Part shown: positions 4,998 through 31,383 of the stretch, in pieces
How the letters are laid out: every line of letters begins with the position of its first letter
How positions within the stretch are numbered: position 1 is the first letter of the stretch
NCBI GenBank assembly: GCA_039636785.1
Contig: CP144169.1
Location: 186,001-250,000 of the forward strand
Origin: Micrococcaceae bacterium Sec5.7
GTDB taxonomy: Bacteria > Actinomycetota > Actinomycetes > Actinomycetales > Micrococcaceae
Length of the DNA stretch: 64,000 nt
Reading direction: 5' to 3'
Notes under the pieces: generated by a model
The model's database searches: none
What the model saw: only the letters and a program-made list of their open reading frames with translations
Told to the model about the DNA's origin: nothing
Made by a program: the position numbers and the translations under genes

Positions 4998-5204
4998 GGT
5001 GCACTCCCGAAAAAATCGGAAGGGCCGTCGATGGGATCCACAGCGCCGGCACGGACCAGCGAGCTCCGGTACTACGGTTGCGTTTAGTGAGCTGGATGTC
5101 GGCGTAATGCTTCTGTGCAGGGGACTTCGGACACCAAGTGTCCATAGCGGCCTGCACAACTCCCGTACTTTCAGGGCAGCCCGTGCAGACGACTTCGGAA
5201 ACTG
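4998..5204. other. Non-coding stretch between the nitrate operon and the mobile element
   Basis: No convincing gene on either strand. A minus-strand frame at 4960-5208 is open for 82 codons but overlaps the 3' end of nasB and has no homology I recognise. I see no strong terminator for the nitrate operon. Confidence 0.5.
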
Positions 5205-5226
5205 ACAAACGAACCGGTTTGTTTGT
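5205..5226. promoter_or_regulatory. 22-bp palindrome of TetR-operator type, centred on AACCGGTT
   Basis: Apart from one mismatched symmetric pair, the sequence is an inverted repeat around 5215/5216, with outer halves ACAAAC and GTTTGT and the core AACCGGTT. This size and symmetry are typical of operators bound by TetR-family dimers. No intact target gene follows; ten bases further on the left end of the mobile element begins. The site may be left over from a promoter whose gene was displaced by the insertion. The palindrome is seen; the regulator is inference. Confidence 0.5.
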
Positions 5227-5228
5227 AG

Positions 5229-5441
5229 TGGAAACGACCGATATCTTTAGTCCTCATCATTCAGTGCCTAGATGTCGGGGCGTACGCGCTACGGACAGTG
5301 TCTAAGACGTACTTTGATGTCGCTCTGCACGCTTACGAGCAGACCGGGAATCGTGATCGACTCGAGATGCTCCTTACCTTGGAAGCGGACTCGATTGCCG
5401 GGCCGGCGATGCCCGAGCATATCGCCTGCAAGCAACGCTGA
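5229..5441 (+). pseudogene. Possible 3' gene fragment without a start codon
   Basis: This plus-strand frame is open for 70 codons before TGA and has no ATG near its beginning. Its translation looks protein-like, for example the stretch HAYEQTGNRDRLEMLLTLEA. It runs across the left inverted repeat. I do not recognise a family. It could be the remains of a gene carried or cut by the mobile element, or a chance frame. Confidence 0.25.
5236..5254 (+). repeat. Left terminal inverted repeat of the mobile element
   Basis: GACCGATATCTTTAGTCCT. Its exact reverse complement occurs at 8863-8881 on the other side of the recombinase genes. It contains the palindrome GATATC. Weak similarity (GAAA just outside) continues past the core on both sides. 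Confidence 0.8.
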
Positions 5442-5484
5442 TATTGCCCGGGGTCTGTGGAGTACCTCGGCCATAGGATGAGGC

Positions 5485-5721
5485 ATGAGCAAGTGGACGA
5501 AGCGCGTCATAGGGGCAGTTGGCTACTTGGTAATGTGCTGGGCGTCGTACCAACTGCTGGGATGGCTTGGGATTCTCTTCCTCGTGGGGGCTGGAGCGCT
5601 TGGCGGCGTCGCAACGATCTTTATCAACCGGAAGGTGAGGAAAGATGAGCAAGTGGCGCAATTCCGAAATAGCCGGGATCCTTTCAACGCCCGCGATGAA
5701 GGATTTCACCCCGAACCCTAG
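5485..5721 (+). CDS. Small putative membrane protein inside the mobile element
   Basis: 78-residue product with a positively charged start (MSKWTKR), two hydrophobic segments (about residues 9-24 and 26-46) and a charged soluble tail. A purine-rich stretch (GGATGAGG) lies just before the ATG. It is the only gene-like frame of the element on the plus strand. Its TAG stop interlocks with the stop of the convergent tnpC-like gene within CTAG at 5718-5721. No family recognised. It may be a passenger gene; a chance frame cannot be excluded. Confidence 0.45.
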   Translation: MSKWTKRVIGAVGYLVMCWASYQLLGWLGILFLVGAGALGGVATIFINRKVRKDEQVAQFRNSRDPFNARDEGFHPEP

Positions 5722-6122
5722 GCCCGGCCACCTGCTCCGTGGGGGCCGCCGGCGTTCCGTCGCCGCGAGTGTCCCAATGCGAGGGCCAGTTGGTGCCTTA
5801 GGTGCTCGATCTCTGCGGACAGCTCGCGGTTCCGTTCCAGAGACGCGTTGAGGCGGGCGCGGAGGGACTCCGTGCTGGCGCTGCTTCGGCTTGCTCTGGG
5901 TTGTTGTGGGCGGTCGTCGCGCAGTCCGATGATGTCCGCGCGCAGGTCGGCCTGGGTGTAGAGCCAGGACCTCGATACTCCGGCGGTAGCAGCTACCGCG
6001 TCGAAGGTGACGGGGGCGCCCTTTTTCTGTAGTTCACGCAGCGCCGCCACGGCTTTGGAACGGGTGAGCTCGTGCCGGCGCTCCGCGGCCAGCCGGATGT
6101 GGCGGCTGTTATCTGCCCGCAC
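5718..6122 (-). CDS. DUF6262 / TnpC-like accessory protein of the recombinase trio
   Basis: 134 residues from the GTG at 6122. The N-terminal half contains a helix-turn-helix-like segment (VTFDAVAATAGVSRSWLY), and the C-terminal half is a likely coiled coil (SLRARLNASLERNRELSAEIEHLRHQ). This matches DUF6262 proteins, which sit next to paired tyrosine recombinases and correspond in position to TnpC of Tn554, a factor affecting transposition. The GTG start is chosen because a strong ribosome-binding stretch (GGAGGAGG) lies just upstream; it overlaps the tnpB-like stop by 14 bases, suggesting coupled translation. An upstream TTG at 6182 is possible but has no such support. Confidence 0.72.
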   Translation of the reverse strand: MRADNSRHIRLAAERRHELTRSKAVAALRELQKKGAPVTFDAVAATAGVSRSWLYTQADLRADIIGLRDDRPQQPRASRSSASTESLRARLNASLERNRELSAEIEHLRHQLALALGHSRRRNAGGPHGAGGRA

Positions 6123-7656
6123 GGTTGTCCTCCTCCTGGACGTGGTTGGGACCTGCATGCGTTTCGTTGTCGAGTGTTTCAATGATGCGGTCCAGGTTGG
6201 TCAGCACCCGGGTGTTCATTTCCGCCAGCCGCTGTTGGCCGCGGGCTTCGGCGGCGGAGATGATCTGTACGACCTGGGTCCGGTGTTCGCGGTGTTGCGG
6301 GAGGAAGTCGGCCGTGGTGATGAACATGGGGCAGGTCAGGCAGGCGTTGGCGTGCGGGCAGGTCTTCTGCACCGGGAGACCGCAGTAGCCGTTGGGGAGC
6401 GCCTGGGTGGCTCGGCCGAGGCGCTGTTTGGCCCAGGCGGCCTCGGCGAGCGGCCCGTCCGGATCGAGTTCGACGACGCTGCCGGATGCGTTGACTTTCC
6501 GGGCGGCTTCCCAGTGCCGTCGGATGCTTGTATCGCTGAGTCTGGCGTAGTGCGCGGTCATCTGGTGGGAGTCGTGGTCCAGGATCCGGCGTACGACCTC
6601 CTGCGGGACATCGAGGTTAATCAGTCTCGTGCCGAGGGTGTGACGGAAACGGTGCGGGCTTACGACAGCCGGGTTGCCGTTGTCGTCGGTGACATCGCAG
6701 TGCCTGACCCATCGTCGAAGGGCGGTGCTGTATGAGTTTGCGCTGATGTGTCCGGCGCCGTAAACGTCCACCCGGTCATGGGCGAAAAGCAGATGTGTCC
6801 CGGAGTTGCCCGTGCCGTTGACGTAGCTGATTTGCTCGGCGATGGCCCGTTCAAGTTCCTCATCGATGGGTACGAGCGCCTCGCGCTTCATCTTGTGGTT
6901 CAGATACCGCACATACGGGGCGCCGTCCTTGTCCCGGGTGATGCAGTCCTGCCGCAGGGCCACGGTGTCGCTGATCCGCAGCCCGCACCGGATCAGAATC
7001 AAGGTGATCAGCCGGTGATGCGGGCTGGCCATTTTGGCGAGATTTGCCGGGTGTTCCAGCTGGGCCATGACGTGTTCGCTCAGTGCCCGGGGTTGCCGGG
7101 CTGTCTCTTTGGGATAGTCCTCGGTGTAGATCTGGGCGGTGCTGGGCAGATCGGTGACCCATCCGTGCCGGCGCATGGTGAGCAGGAAGGTGTTGAACTG
7201 GCCGATCCGGGTCCGGTGCGAAACCGTCCCGGCGCTGTGGGTGTGCAGGTATGCCAGGAACCCTTCGATTACCTCCCTGTCAATGTCGGCGGTGCCGGTG
7301 ACCGAGATCCTCGTTGAATCCAGAAAGGCGTTGAAGTTCTCCACGGCCTTGGTTCCCAGTACCGCGGACTCAACCGTCAATCCGGTCGTCAGCCGCCAGC
7401 GGGCCCAGCGCTTGGCCAGCTGCTTCAACCAGGGCCGGGTGATGTTTTCGAAGTGGACGGTTACGTGGCTGCGGGCGGCGATACCGAGGGACCTGGCATG
7501 CCAGACATCCTTGGGATACTCGTTCTCCCACGGCGCGGCGCCCGCCCCGGCCTTCCCCATGGGCCTCGTCCGGAGCGGCGGCTGGTCGATGCTGCTGTCC
7601 GCGCCGGGGGTCGTTGCCGGGTCGTTTCGTGTGGGCACGGGATGCAGGGTAGTCAT
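6109..7656 (-). CDS. Tyrosine recombinase, TnpB-like, with cysteine-rich C-terminus
   Basis: 515-residue site-specific recombinase. The catalytic domain shows the first arginine in RCGLRISDTVAL, the box-II motif HRFRHTLG, then DHDSHQMTAHYARL, which supplies the conserved His and the nucleophilic Tyr. After the catalytic domain comes a Cys cluster (NGYCG, KTCPHANACLTCPMF), a probable zinc site as in TnpB of Tn554, followed by a helical tail. The ATG overlaps the tnpA-like stop (ATGA) and its own stop overlaps the start of the DUF6262 gene, so the three form a tight operon. It very likely acts together with the TnpA-like enzyme at the inverted repeats. Confidence 0.85.
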   Translation of the reverse strand: MTTLHPVPTRNDPATTPGADSSIDQPPLRTRPMGKAGAGAAPWENEYPKDVWHARSLGIAARSHVTVHFENITRPWLKQLAKRWARWRLTTGLTVESAVLGTKAVENFNAFLDSTRISVTGTADIDREVIEGFLAYLHTHSAGTVSHRTRIGQFNTFLLTMRRHGWVTDLPSTAQIYTEDYPKETARQPRALSEHVMAQLEHPANLAKMASPHHRLITLILIRCGLRISDTVALRQDCITRDKDGAPYVRYLNHKMKREALVPIDEELERAIAEQISYVNGTGNSGTHLLFAHDRVDVYGAGHISANSYSTALRRWVRHCDVTDDNGNPAVVSPHRFRHTLGTRLINLDVPQEVVRRILDHDSHQMTAHYARLSDTSIRRHWEAARKVNASGSVVELDPDGPLAEAAWAKQRLGRATQALPNGYCGLPVQKTCPHANACLTCPMFITTADFLPQHREHRTQVVQIISAAEARGQQRLAEMNTRVLTNLDRIIETLDNETHAGPNHVQEEDNRAGR

Positions 7657-8756
7657 ATCGTCACCGTCCTGGTGGCGAACCAGCCCGCATCGGCCAGTGC
7701 GCGGCGGGCATCATCGCTGGAGATATGGGCGTACGTTTTGACCGTAGTCGTGAGGCTGGCGTGGCCCAACAGTTTGGAGACGACCTCTATTGGGACTTTC
7801 TCGCGCAGCATCCGGGTGGCATAGGTGTGCCGGAACCAGTGCGGCTCGAACCCGATGCCCGTCTGGTGCCGGAGCCGCCGCACGAGATCGTGCACTGCGG
7901 CGTAAGTCATTGCCCGCCCGTAGGGCCGGCCCCACAGGTTGACGAAGACGTAGTCGCAATCCAGGTCACCGTACTCAGCATCAAGATAGTCGGCATACAA
8001 ACGGATCAGTTCCGCGGTGACCGGAACCGTGCGCGAATGGGGCGATTTCGCGCGTGCACCGTTGATGTTGTCCCGCCGGCTTATGGTGATTTCCCGTTCG
8101 GCGACGGCGATGTCCTCATGCCGGAGGCCCAGGGCTTCACCGATCCGGATGCCGGCGTCATGGAGGAGTGCGAAGAGCAGTCGGTCCCGGAGGTGTTCGC
8201 ACGAATCCAGAATGCTTTGGACATCGTTCGGGGCCAGGAGGCGGGGAATCCTGGCAGTGGTCGGAAGCTTCACCGTCCTCCGCTGCTTGGCGGTTCCCTT
8301 GCTGATGTGGTGCAGGAAGGGTTTCCATCCTCCCTGGCGGGCGGAGGGGTCCCAGCAGGTGATCAGCTCGCCAAGGTCAAGGCCGTGGCGGGCGGCATGC
8401 TGATAGAAGATGGACACGGTTGAAAGCTTGCGGTTCACCGTTGCCTCGCCGCAATGGTGCCCAATGGCCGGAAGAACTGAAAAGACCTGGCCACGCATGT
8501 CCGGTGGACGCCGCAGCCATCGGATGAACGCTCCGACGTCTTCGAGCTTCACCGACTTCCAGTCGTGTCCGAATTCGTCCAGGAAAACGAACCAGTCCTT
8601 CAAATCGTGGGCATGGGCCTTGATCGTGTTCGGTGACCGCTCGGTCTCGGCCAAATAACGCAGATACCGCTCCGCCGGTTCCACCACGCCGGTCACGCCG
8701 ATCAGCGTGAAAGACACCGCATCGCTTGCCGGATCCAATACCTTCGTTACCCGCAT
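7653..8756 (-). CDS. Tyrosine recombinase, TnpA-like
   Basis: 367 residues from the ATG at 8756. It has an N-terminal SAM-like core-binding domain (ERYLRYLAETERSPNTIKAHAHDLKDW) and a catalytic domain with the arginine in DAGIRIGEALGL, HWFRHTYATRML, LLGHASLTTTVKTYAHI and thus the R-H-R-H-Y set. It is first in the three-gene recombinase operon and overlaps the second gene by four bases. The start at 8756 is preferred because GGGAG lies about six bases upstream; in-frame ATGs at 8780 and 8807 would add 8 or 17 residues. Confidence 0.84.
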   Translation of the reverse strand: MRVTKVLDPASDAVSFTLIGVTGVVEPAERYLRYLAETERSPNTIKAHAHDLKDWFVFLDEFGHDWKSVKLEDVGAFIRWLRRPPDMRGQVFSVLPAIGHHCGEATVNRKLSTVSIFYQHAARHGLDLGELITCWDPSARQGGWKPFLHHISKGTAKQRRTVKLPTTARIPRLLAPNDVQSILDSCEHLRDRLLFALLHDAGIRIGEALGLRHEDIAVAEREITISRRDNINGARAKSPHSRTVPVTAELIRLYADYLDAEYGDLDCDYVFVNLWGRPYGRAMTYAAVHDLVRRLRHQTGIGFEPHWFRHTYATRMLREKVPIEVVSKLLGHASLTTTVKTYAHISSDDARRALADAGWFATRTVTI

Positions 8757-8862
8757 CGCCGCTCCCGTCAGTTGCCTCATGGACGGACAAGACGCTAACC
8801 CATCCACAACGAAGCAACCGGATCCCCAAACCCTCGTGGGCTACATGACGGACGGGCGCAGC

Positions 8863-8881
8863 AGGACTAAAGATATCGGTC
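8863..8881 (-). repeat. Right terminal inverted repeat of the mobile element
   Basis: AGGACTAAAGATATCGGTC, the exact reverse complement of 5236-5254. It lies about 107 bases upstream of the first recombinase start, so the promoter of the recombinase operon must lie between the two. Confidence 0.8.
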
Positions 8882-9044
8882 ATTTTCGGGACGCATGTTG
8901 TCGGCGTCAATTTGCATTGCCAGCCGGTCGAGGGTTGAGAGACACCATCCCACGGGAGGGCCAGCCGAACAGGAGGTAAGCCCGGAAACGGAAAGCAGCA
9001 CCACCCATTGTTCGATACGGGCGGCGACGCAATTCTGCGCATTA
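8882..9044. other. Non-coding flank right of the mobile element
   Basis: No gene supported. One plus-strand frame ending at 8979 gives a protein-like tail (LPAGRGLRDTIPREGQPNRR) with no start outside the element. It could be the severed end of a gene broken by the insertion, but I cannot assign it. Confidence 0.35.
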
Positions 9045-10666: not shown

Positions 10667-11485
10667 ATGTCGTCTCAATCTAACCAGCCGCAGCGTGGCC
10701 GTCGTCGGGAAGCCCCCGTTGACGAACGGCCTGCCACGCAGCATGGCCGCCGTCGGGAAGCCCCCGTTGACGAACGGCCTGCCACGCAGCATGGCCGCCG
10801 CCGGGAAGCCCCCGTTGACGAACGGCCTGCCACGCAGCATGGCCGCCGCCGGGAAGCCCACGTTAACGAACGGCCTGCCTTCAGGCATTTGCGAGGCACA
10901 TCATTCGTCAGCGGGTCCGGCAGCCAAAAAGCCGTCGTCCTCACCGCCACCGCCGGAATTCTGCTCAGCTTGGGTCTGGCGGCTCAGCCGCTGATTTCCG
11001 ACGGCGTGAGCGCCACGGCCGCGCCGGCACCCGAGGACGTGAGTGTCGCCGTTACGTCAGCATTCGGCGCTGCAGGTGCAGGTGCTGCGGCCATCAGCGC
11101 CCCTGCGGATGCTTCCCTCCCGTTCAGCCGCCCCAGCGTAGGGCCGCTCACCCCGAAATCGTCCCCTGGAACCGGCCCGGCACCGACCATGCCACCGTCG
11201 GCACAACGGACGACACAACCGACCAACCCACCGTCGGCACAACCGACGACACAACCGACCAACCCACCGTCGGCACAACCGACGACACAACCGACCAACC
11301 CACCGTCGGCACAACCGACGACACAACCGACCAACCCACCGTCGGCGCAACCGACGACACAACCGACCAACCCAACGTCGACGGTAGAACCCGGACCAGG
11401 CCGAAGCGATCCACCAGCTGACCCAGATCGGAATCCCCGCGATGCCGACCGCCCGCAAAACCAGGGCCAACATGAAGACCGCTGA
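10667..11485 (+). CDS. Riboswitch-controlled repeat protein with one membrane/signal segment, no catalytic domain
   Basis: 272 residues. Residues 11-74 are four tandem 16-residue repeats (GRRREAPVDERPATQH type). A hydrophobic stretch follows at about residues 86-108 (signal peptide or anchor), then an Ala/Pro-rich linker, then five 12-residue PPSAQPTTQPTN repeats and a charged tail. The N-terminal plan (GRRR repeats, then an export segment, then a PAPEDVSVAVTS linker) resembles M23-type peptidoglycan hydrolases of Arthrobacter that are controlled by the same riboswitch. Here no peptidase motif is present. It is either a truncated hydrolase whose tail was replaced by low-complexity repeats or a wall-spanning protein in its own right. 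Confidence 0.7.
   Translation: MSSQSNQPQRGRRREAPVDERPATQHGRRREAPVDERPATQHGRRREAPVDERPATQHGRRREAHVNERPAFRHLRGTSFVSGSGSQKAVVLTATAGILLSLGLAAQPLISDGVSATAAPAPEDVSVAVTSAFGAAGAGAAAISAPADASLPFSRPSVGPLTPKSSPGTGPAPTMPPSAQRTTQPTNPPSAQPTTQPTNPPSAQPTTQPTNPPSAQPTTQPTNPPSAQPTTQPTNPTSTVEPGPGRSDPPADPDRNPRDADRPQNQGQHEDR
10697..10888 (+). repeat. Four tandem 48-bp coding repeats
   Basis: Units begin with GGCC at 10697, 10745, 10793 and 10841, spaced exactly 48 bp, and encode 16-residue repeats in frame. Units 1-3 differ by only a few bases; the fourth is degenerate (AHVNERPAFRH). There are no spacers, so this is not a CRISPR array. The near identity suggests recent expansion. Confidence 0.92.
11192..11371 (+). 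repeat. Five tandem 36-bp coding repeats
   Basis: Units starting CCACCGTCGG at 11192, 11228, 11264, 11300 and 11336 are spaced exactly 36 bp and encode PPSAQPTTQPTN. A partial sixth unit begins at 11372. Such Pro/Thr-rich repeats are typical wall-spanning linkers. The copies are nearly identical at DNA level, so copy number may vary between strains. Confidence 0.92.
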
Positions 11486-30045: not shown

Positions 30046-31383
30046 TTGACCAGCCGCCATTCCCTTCCGGCCCGCGCCGCCAAGGTCTTCAGCCGTTCCA
30101 CTTACCCGGAATACCTCAGGATCTCCGAGATCCTGAGGCTGGAGACCGTGGGTGGCGCCCTCCTGCTGGCGGCCACCGTGGTAGCCCTGATCTGGGCAAA
30201 CTCCCCCGTTGCGGACAGCTACTTCGACCTCCGTGAACTCAAAGTGGGCTACGAACCCTGGCATCTCCAGCTCAGCCTGGGACACTGGGCGTCCGACGGT
30301 CTGCTGGCCGTCTTCTTCTTCATTGCCGGCCTGGAACTCAAGCGTGAATTCGTGTCAGGCGAGCTCAGGAAGTTCTCCAAGGCCGTGGTTCCCGTCGCCG
30401 CGGCAATCGGCGGTGTGGCTGTTCCGGCCATCATCTACGCCCTCGTCAACCTGACAGCCGGACCGGAAGCGCTGAGGGGCTGGGCAATCCCCACGGCCAC
30501 CGACATCGCTTTTGCCCTGGCGGTGCTGGCAGTGATCAACACCCATCTGCCGGCAGCGCTGAGAACGTTCCTGCTGACCCTCGCCGTTGTTGATGACCTC
30601 TTGGCGATCGGCATCATCGCTTTCTTCTACTCCACAGACCTGCAGCCGCTGCTGCTGCTGGCTGCCCTGGTGCCGCTGGCGCTCTTTACCTTCCTCGTGC
30701 AAAAGCGGATCCGCAGCTGGTACTTGCTGGTTCCGCTGGCAGCTGCCACCTGGGCACTGGTGCACGCGTCCGGAATCCATGCCACCGTGGCGGGGGTGCT
30801 GCTCGGCTTCGCGGTGCCGGTCCTCGCGTCCAGAAAAGAGCAGGCAGCCATGAGACCCGGTGAGCCCGATCATGGCATGGCCGAAAGCATCGAACACAGG
30901 CTCCGGCCGCTGTCAGCCGGATTTGCCGTTCCCGTGTTTGCGTTCTTTTCCGCCGGGGTAGCCCTGGGCGGTGTGGCGGGGCTGAGTTCGGCCTTCGCCG
31001 ACCCGGTGGCCGTGGGGATTGTTGCCGCGCTGGTTGCCGGCAAGGCCATCGGCGTGTTCGGCGCCACCTACCTGATCACCAAAACCACCAAGGCAAAACT
31101 CGACGACGGCCTGGCCTGGATCGATGTGGCGGGCCTCGCCGTGCTGGCAGGGGTGGGCTTCACCGTATCCCTGCTCATTGCCGAGCTGAGTTTCGGCGCC
31201 GGTTCAGCGCATGACGACCACGCGAAGGTGGCCATCCTGGCCGGTTCCCTGCTCGCGGCGCTGCTCGCCGCCGTCGTGCTCCGTGCACGGAACCGGCACT
31301 ACCGCCGGGTGGAGCTGGAAGAAACCCGCGACGACGACGGCGACGGCGTCCCGGACGTTTTCGACCATACCCGGAAGGGCTGA
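30046..31383 (+). CDS. nhaA: Na+/H+ antiporter NhaA
   Basis: 445 residues with about 11-12 membrane segments. Family hallmarks are visible: [18 protein letters not shown] near residue 90, the trans-membrane stretch [13 protein letters not shown], and the ion-binding aspartate pair in [18 protein letters not shown]. The acidic tail ([20 protein letters not shown]) is unusual and has a calcium-binding-like DxDGDG look. The TTG start at 30046 is supported by AGGAG six bases upstream. An nhaA-I type RNA precedes it, in agreement with ion control. It is convergent with sufU, with only six bases between the stops. Confidence 0.94.

Follow-up and report, generated by a model that had tools for sequence, protein, structure and literature searches.

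Results and discussion

What kind of element lies between the long exact inverted repeats of this locus, and what kind of site has it entered? We analysed a stretch of 64,000 nucleotides (the window; positions below refer to it) in which a sequence check found GACCGATATCTTTAGTCCT at 5236-5254 and its exact reverse complement at 8863-8881. This is the sole exact 19-mer inverted pair less than 6 kb apart in the window, against a chance expectation of 0.007 pairs. Between the repeats lie tnpA, tnpB and tnpC and one small passenger ORF (Table 1), with overlaps of 4 bases between tnpA and tnpB and of 14 bases between tnpB and tnpC. A preliminary description of this DNA had given the repeats, the genes and both overlaps correctly. 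It had also proposed a Tn554-like three-gene element bounded by the repeats, and a mode of recombination different from that of classical Tn554. The element is an apparently intact Tn554-family transposon.

Table 1. Features of the element and of the adjoining host DNA, by position in the window.
Feature	Position	Strand	Basis
25-bp Tn402/Tn5053-type terminal inverted repeat (relic), outside the element	5183..5207	-	2 mismatches to consensus TGTCATTTTCAGAAGNCGNCTGCAC
Left target half-site TGTAGTGGAAAC, host DNA	5224..5235	+	consensus TCAAAAAC of the aligned outer arms (11 copies)
Left 6-bp crossover segment CGACCG	5235..5240	+	variable at GNNC among copies, conserved arms either side
Left terminal inverted repeat GATATCTTTAGTCCT	5240..5254	+	conserved in ten other complete copies
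Left subterminal region	5255..5371	+	~100 bp conserved between copies
Passenger ORF, 78 aa, hydrophobic, beside tnpC	5485..5721	+	ORF list; different gene in the slot of most copies
tnpC, DUF6262 protein, GTG start at 6122	5718..6122	-	PF19776, E 1.1e-08
tnpB, long tyrosine recombinase, 515 aa	7656-6109	-	PF00589
tnpA, tyrosine recombinase, 384 aa	8807-7653	-	PF00589 and PF02899
tnpA-side non-coding end, 74 bp	8808..8881	-	74-75 bp in 11/11 copies
Right terminal inverted repeat AGGACTAAAGATATC	8863..8877	-	same ends in other copies
Right 6-bp crossover segment CGGTCA	8877..8882	+	aligned copies
Right target half-site ATTTTCGGGACG, host DNA	8882..8893	+	aligned outer arms

By Pfam, TnpA and TnpB have a phage integrase domain and TnpC a DUF6262 domain. 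The motifs of both recombinases are of the R-H-R-H type, with the tyrosine, and match those of a Tn558-type element; the one around the second histidine is degenerate in TnpB (DHDSH). The Tn558-type reference comes from an Enterococcus plasmid, carries fexA and stands between two JAB-domain gene fragments. Identity to its proteins is 38% for TnpA (E 9e-77), 31.6% for TnpB (E 1e-77) and 30% for TnpC (E 4e-14). Judged by this homology of all three genes in one operon, the element belongs to the Tn554 family.

Copies in other genomes define the ends

A search of 198 genomes of the genus yielded nine full-length relatives with 85-92% identity, and a protein search added one further complete copy in Arthrobacter sp. 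35W, making ten besides the copy in the window. All ten have the same kind of inverted ends, 3.6-4.1 kb apart, and lie at other sites; some have broken recombinase frames. These ten copies, with shared ends at other sites, establish that the element is mobile and show where its true ends lie. The preliminary description had looked for support both to copies with the same ends at unrelated sites and to empty sites in sister strains. Copies were thus forthcoming and, with the homology of the three proteins, they bear out a repeat-bounded, Tn554-like three-gene element; no empty version of the window locus was found in the searched genomes. Automatic detection of inverted repeats in distant relatives gave a clear result in the close clade and a few others only, and was at noise level elsewhere.

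The outermost 4 bases of the 19-bp repeat differ among copies (GACC, GGTC, GATC, GGCT, GAAC and others). Because they change between ends and GATATCTTTAGTC is mostly retained, we take the repeat proper to be (C)GATATCTTTAGTCCT, of 15-16 bp, with a 6-bp crossover segment CGNNCG next to it. On this alignment the outer GACC of the window copy is part of the variable crossover segment and not of the repeat proper, and the perfect 19-bp match is partly due to the coincidence of the same 4 bases at both ends. The subterminal conservation on the left is seen as blastn matches to query positions 30-172 in several copies, also among cargo segments.

A passenger region lies between tnpC and the nearer end of the element, of which ~100 bp are conserved. 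Its main ORF differs in most copies, encoding a HAD hydrolase, a SUFU-domain protein, a DUF4265 protein or unrecognised small proteins. The element is compact, and its passenger slot varies freely.

The window's own genome holds a single copy and two short end-like relics elsewhere, both without nearby tnpABC. One is a solo tnpA-side relic of ~100 bp (L047, G000:C1:564966-565065), the other a solo 19-bp match of the tnpC-side type (L048, G000:C1:4251575-4251593). On a Pseudarthrobacter plasmid (L140, G011:C3:26453-36192), two copies of a related Tn554-like element, identical in match score, point in opposite directions at a distance of a few kb. Moreover, there is a second Tn554-like group (L137 at 4467 and 8449; L139 at 5586 and 9569) with ~68% DNA identity, different flanks and its own inverted ends near CGATCGTTATCTYCAGTCC.

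The insertions share a dyad target

All 22 outer arms of the 11 copies fit one half-site, TCAAAAAC, and therefore each insertion splits a dyad close to GTCARAAA-CGRYCG-TTTYTGAC. The arms of ten solo ends are of the same kind. There is also a likeness between the dyad and the hix site of the Hin invertase. In unoccupied form, the exact dyad TCARAAACGRYCGTTWYTGA was found at 42 places, spread over 35 of 206 genomes, compared with 0 for a reversed control. We read 30 unoccupied loci, and a serine-resolvase homologue lies within 1.5 kb of the dyad in 16; several other unoccupied loci adjoin a module that encodes a ParA-like ATPase and a large, conserved, putative replication protein. Similarity between dyad loci tends to end at the dyad, as a crossover point would give.

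The possibility that the dyad is the end of the second Tn554-like group was ruled out, as the ends of that group are different; moreover, no tnpABC genes were found near the unoccupied-dyad loci checked. A separate observation is that TGTGAATCGC-GCGATAAATGGCGGC recurs ~35-55 bp from many unoccupied dyads, often by ParA-like modules (L089, L100, L091, L101, L109, L115 and L122). This sequence may mark the end of a further element favouring res sites.

The dyad as a candidate res crossover site

With the resolvase beside the copy G075 (r0-type) as query, the upstream regions of 30 relatives were scored for the dyad, using a matrix trained on the insertions themselves, whose own scores are not independent. 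Among proteins of known structure, this resolvase comes closest to DNA invertase and the gamma-delta/Tn3 resolvases. A high-scoring dyad is found upstream in 19/30 r0-type loci: in 14 it lies 136-138 bp from the GYARVS codon, and in 5 its upstream distance is different; ten of the 30 have no dyad upstream. In a control with the upstream regions of another resolvase type, all scores stayed below 17. A dyad 136-138 bp before a Gin/Tn3-like serine resolvase stands at the position expected of res crossover site I, and we regard it as a candidate for that site.

The end of the element in G075 is at position 137, exactly the dyad position before the resolvase gene. Flanks of G075, G003 and G049 match the r0-type res sequence (z 19.5, 11.3 and 6.5, respectively), with the resolvase-side flank at the tnpC end in each. 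Insertion in a res site is thus recognisable at 3/11 insertions only, by exact position in G075 and by res flanks in G003 and G049. At the other eight, the window's included, the dyad alone is shared and no r0-type res sequence can be recognised. A resolvase beside the copy G096b was set aside as support, being a truncated gene of a family that has a different res. In the open-access literature searched, we came upon no paper linking Tn554-type elements to res sites and no earlier report of tyrosine-recombinase 'res hunters'; a res-site target for this Tn554-type element appears to be new.

The site occupied in the window

Outside the element lies a relic of a Tn402/Tn5053-type end (Table 1), recognised by comparison with the published Tn402-type terminal repeat (PMC10537328). 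Its outer end faces the insertion core, 28 bp away. It is the single match in the window, and there was none in 141 kb of other loci. A Tn402-type end also faces the core at the copy G165, 30 bp away, and one unoccupied dyad (L114/L256) has such ends on both sides, at 22 and 28 bp. No resolvase gene adjoins the window's element, the nearest being ~100 kb off. Because the end of a known res hunter stands 28 bp from the core, we infer that the window's element may sit in a decayed res locus; the argument is weakest at this point. A repeated sequence at 5109-5207, considered as a res accessory site, was rejected, as it ends in the Tn402-type transposon end.

Footprint and proposed mechanism

The 6-bp segments at the two ends of a copy often differ. 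In G075 the tnpA end has the 6 bp of the target, as given by unoccupied relatives, and the tnpC end has a foreign CGATCG. The copy G148 shows the same polarity by comparison with an unoccupied G046 site (1.5 kb, 87% identity). This polarity was read from two copies, against related and not identical unoccupied sites, the other copies being uninformative. In these two cases it appears to agree with the rule reported for Tn554 and for the strand-biased circularizing integrative elements (SEs). In Tn554 the reported rule is that a copy of 6 bp from the donor site's left side ends up on the right side of the new one (PMC10214605).

We propose the following route, in which the circle and the division of labour among TnpA, TnpB and TnpC are inferred, and which builds on sequence comparison of the ends, the dyad, its fixed position before one resolvase type, the occupied site of G075 and the differing 6-bp segments. 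TnpA and TnpB, with help from TnpC, would join the inverted ends across a 6-bp segment and form a circular joint, GACTAAAGATAT-CGNNCG-ATATCTTTAGTC, predicted to be GACTAAAGATATCGNNCGATATCTTTAGTC in the host strain. The joint would then recombine with the dyad target, the CGNNCG centre being common to both. The tnpA end would keep the target's own 6 bp, and the tnpC end would receive those of the donor. The empty site of the window is accordingly predicted to read TGTAGTGGAAA-CGGTCA-TTTTCGGGACG. A preferred target would be crossover site I of a serine-resolvase res, so that insertion would split the site where the resolvase would cut. No circular joint was found in 206 assemblies, but a rare form would be expected to escape such a search.

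Competing readings

We consider it probable that this is a Tn554-family transposon with two tyrosine recombinases and TnpC that inserts in the dyad and has res site I as a preferred target. Since its relatives in other Arthrobacter genomes appear to land where plasmid resolvases cut, a second, unrelated transposon class appears to have evolved res-site hunting, a behaviour hitherto known from the Tn402/Tn5053 family. A bolder version, which we put forward tentatively, is that this branch of the Tn554 family is a second, independently evolved class of res-site hunters. Its tyrosine recombinases would recognise the crossover sites of serine resolvases, perhaps sensing bound resolvase via TnpC or TnpB, and would disable resolution by splitting site I. 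It could instead be that the element has a palindromic target of its own that merely resembles res site I, with TnpA and TnpB reading the dyad alone. Hits in res would then be a by-product of serine recombinases using a similar sequence, with no adaptation and no need for the resolvase. That all insertions fit the dyad, and that eight of the 11 have no recognisable r0-type res beyond it, is in keeping with this account. However, three insertions, of which the one in G075 is exactly at the crossover position, fall in a single res type, and the comparable spacing between Tn402-type end and core in the window and at G165 suggests that more of the sites are res loci. These points would still be compatible with recognition by sequence only, and we judge the account unlikely.

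The preliminary description had held that terminal inverted repeats of this kind are absent from classical Tn554, and from these repeats came the idea of a different recombination arrangement. The ends here are indeed much more symmetric than those of the Tn558-type element, where the best end-to-end match found was 17/24 bases. However, Tn554 ends have been reported as imperfect terminal inverted repeats (PMC10214605, 2023), so the contrast holds in degree and not in kind, and the 6-bp footprint too is already on record for Tn554 and SEs. Moreover, the two informative copies appear to share the reported polarity, which counts against the proposal, and we now regard a different arrangement as very improbable. 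As inverted repeats around a recombinase can also mark an invertible segment, the repeats might belong to a DNA switch or to part of the host locus rather than to a transposon. Yet repeats and genes occur jointly at unrelated sites in other genomes, each copy having different flanks, and we give this explanation practically no credence.

Relation to known elements

The Tn554-family transposon described here shares with Tn554 and Tn558 of Staphylococcus and Enterococcus the order and relative sizes of tnpA, a long tnpB and a DUF6262 tnpC, the passenger beside tnpC, the homology of all three proteins and, as far as two copies indicate, the logic of the 6-bp footprint. It differs from them in target, theirs being a site in a JAB-domain (radC-type) gene and the one here a dyad found at res sites, in its far more symmetric ends and in having one small passenger gene in place of resistance genes. 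Tn554-related elements of Actinobacteria were described in 2012 (PMC3414803). They have the same three-gene plan and the same host phylum, Arthrobacter included, whereas their TnpB proteins are of 611-828 aa, compared with 515 aa here. That report apparently leaves the ends and targets of these elements undefined.

SEs likewise have two tyrosine recombinases, a 6-bp spacer, apparently of the same polarity, and imperfect inverted ends of 13-19 bp (PMC10214605). They differ in their additional gene tfp, their gammaproteobacterial hosts and their other targets; only three core genes lie between the ends here, compared with the four of SEs. GInts and RIT elements also have several tyrosine recombinases in one operon, and GinD is similar to TnpC (PMC5385486). 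However, they have three recombinase-type genes, and the element here encodes two phage-integrase proteins and one DUF6262 protein, which places it outside both groups. Tn402/Tn5053 elements are the known 'res-site hunters' (PMC7765201, PMC12217951). A preference for res sites is proposed to be common to them and the element here, and Tn402-type ends are found no more than ~30 bp from the same cores. The Tn402/Tn5053 elements work with TniABQ proteins and 25-bp repeats and make 5-bp target duplications, whereas the tyrosine recombinases here would insert in the crossover site itself, without duplication. Neither tniABQ nor 25-bp TGTCA repeats at its own ends were found in our element, which has GATATCTTTAGTC ends and tyrosine recombinase genes.

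A transposon whose tyrosine recombinases read serine-recombinase crossover sites would join two worlds of recombination. If this is true, res sites would be a convergent landing zone for unrelated transposons, bringing transposons onto plasmids. Moreover, a defined target, a predicted circle joint and a footprint rule would offer a handle, in a soil actinobacterium, on the transposition route of Tn554.

Two further features were noted elsewhere in the window. An ORF at 10667-11485 has tandem repeats (PTTQPTNPPSAQ and an N-terminal repeat of ~15 residues), and an exact 18-bp inverted repeat, ~520 bp apart, lies at 30485-30502 and 31004-31021.
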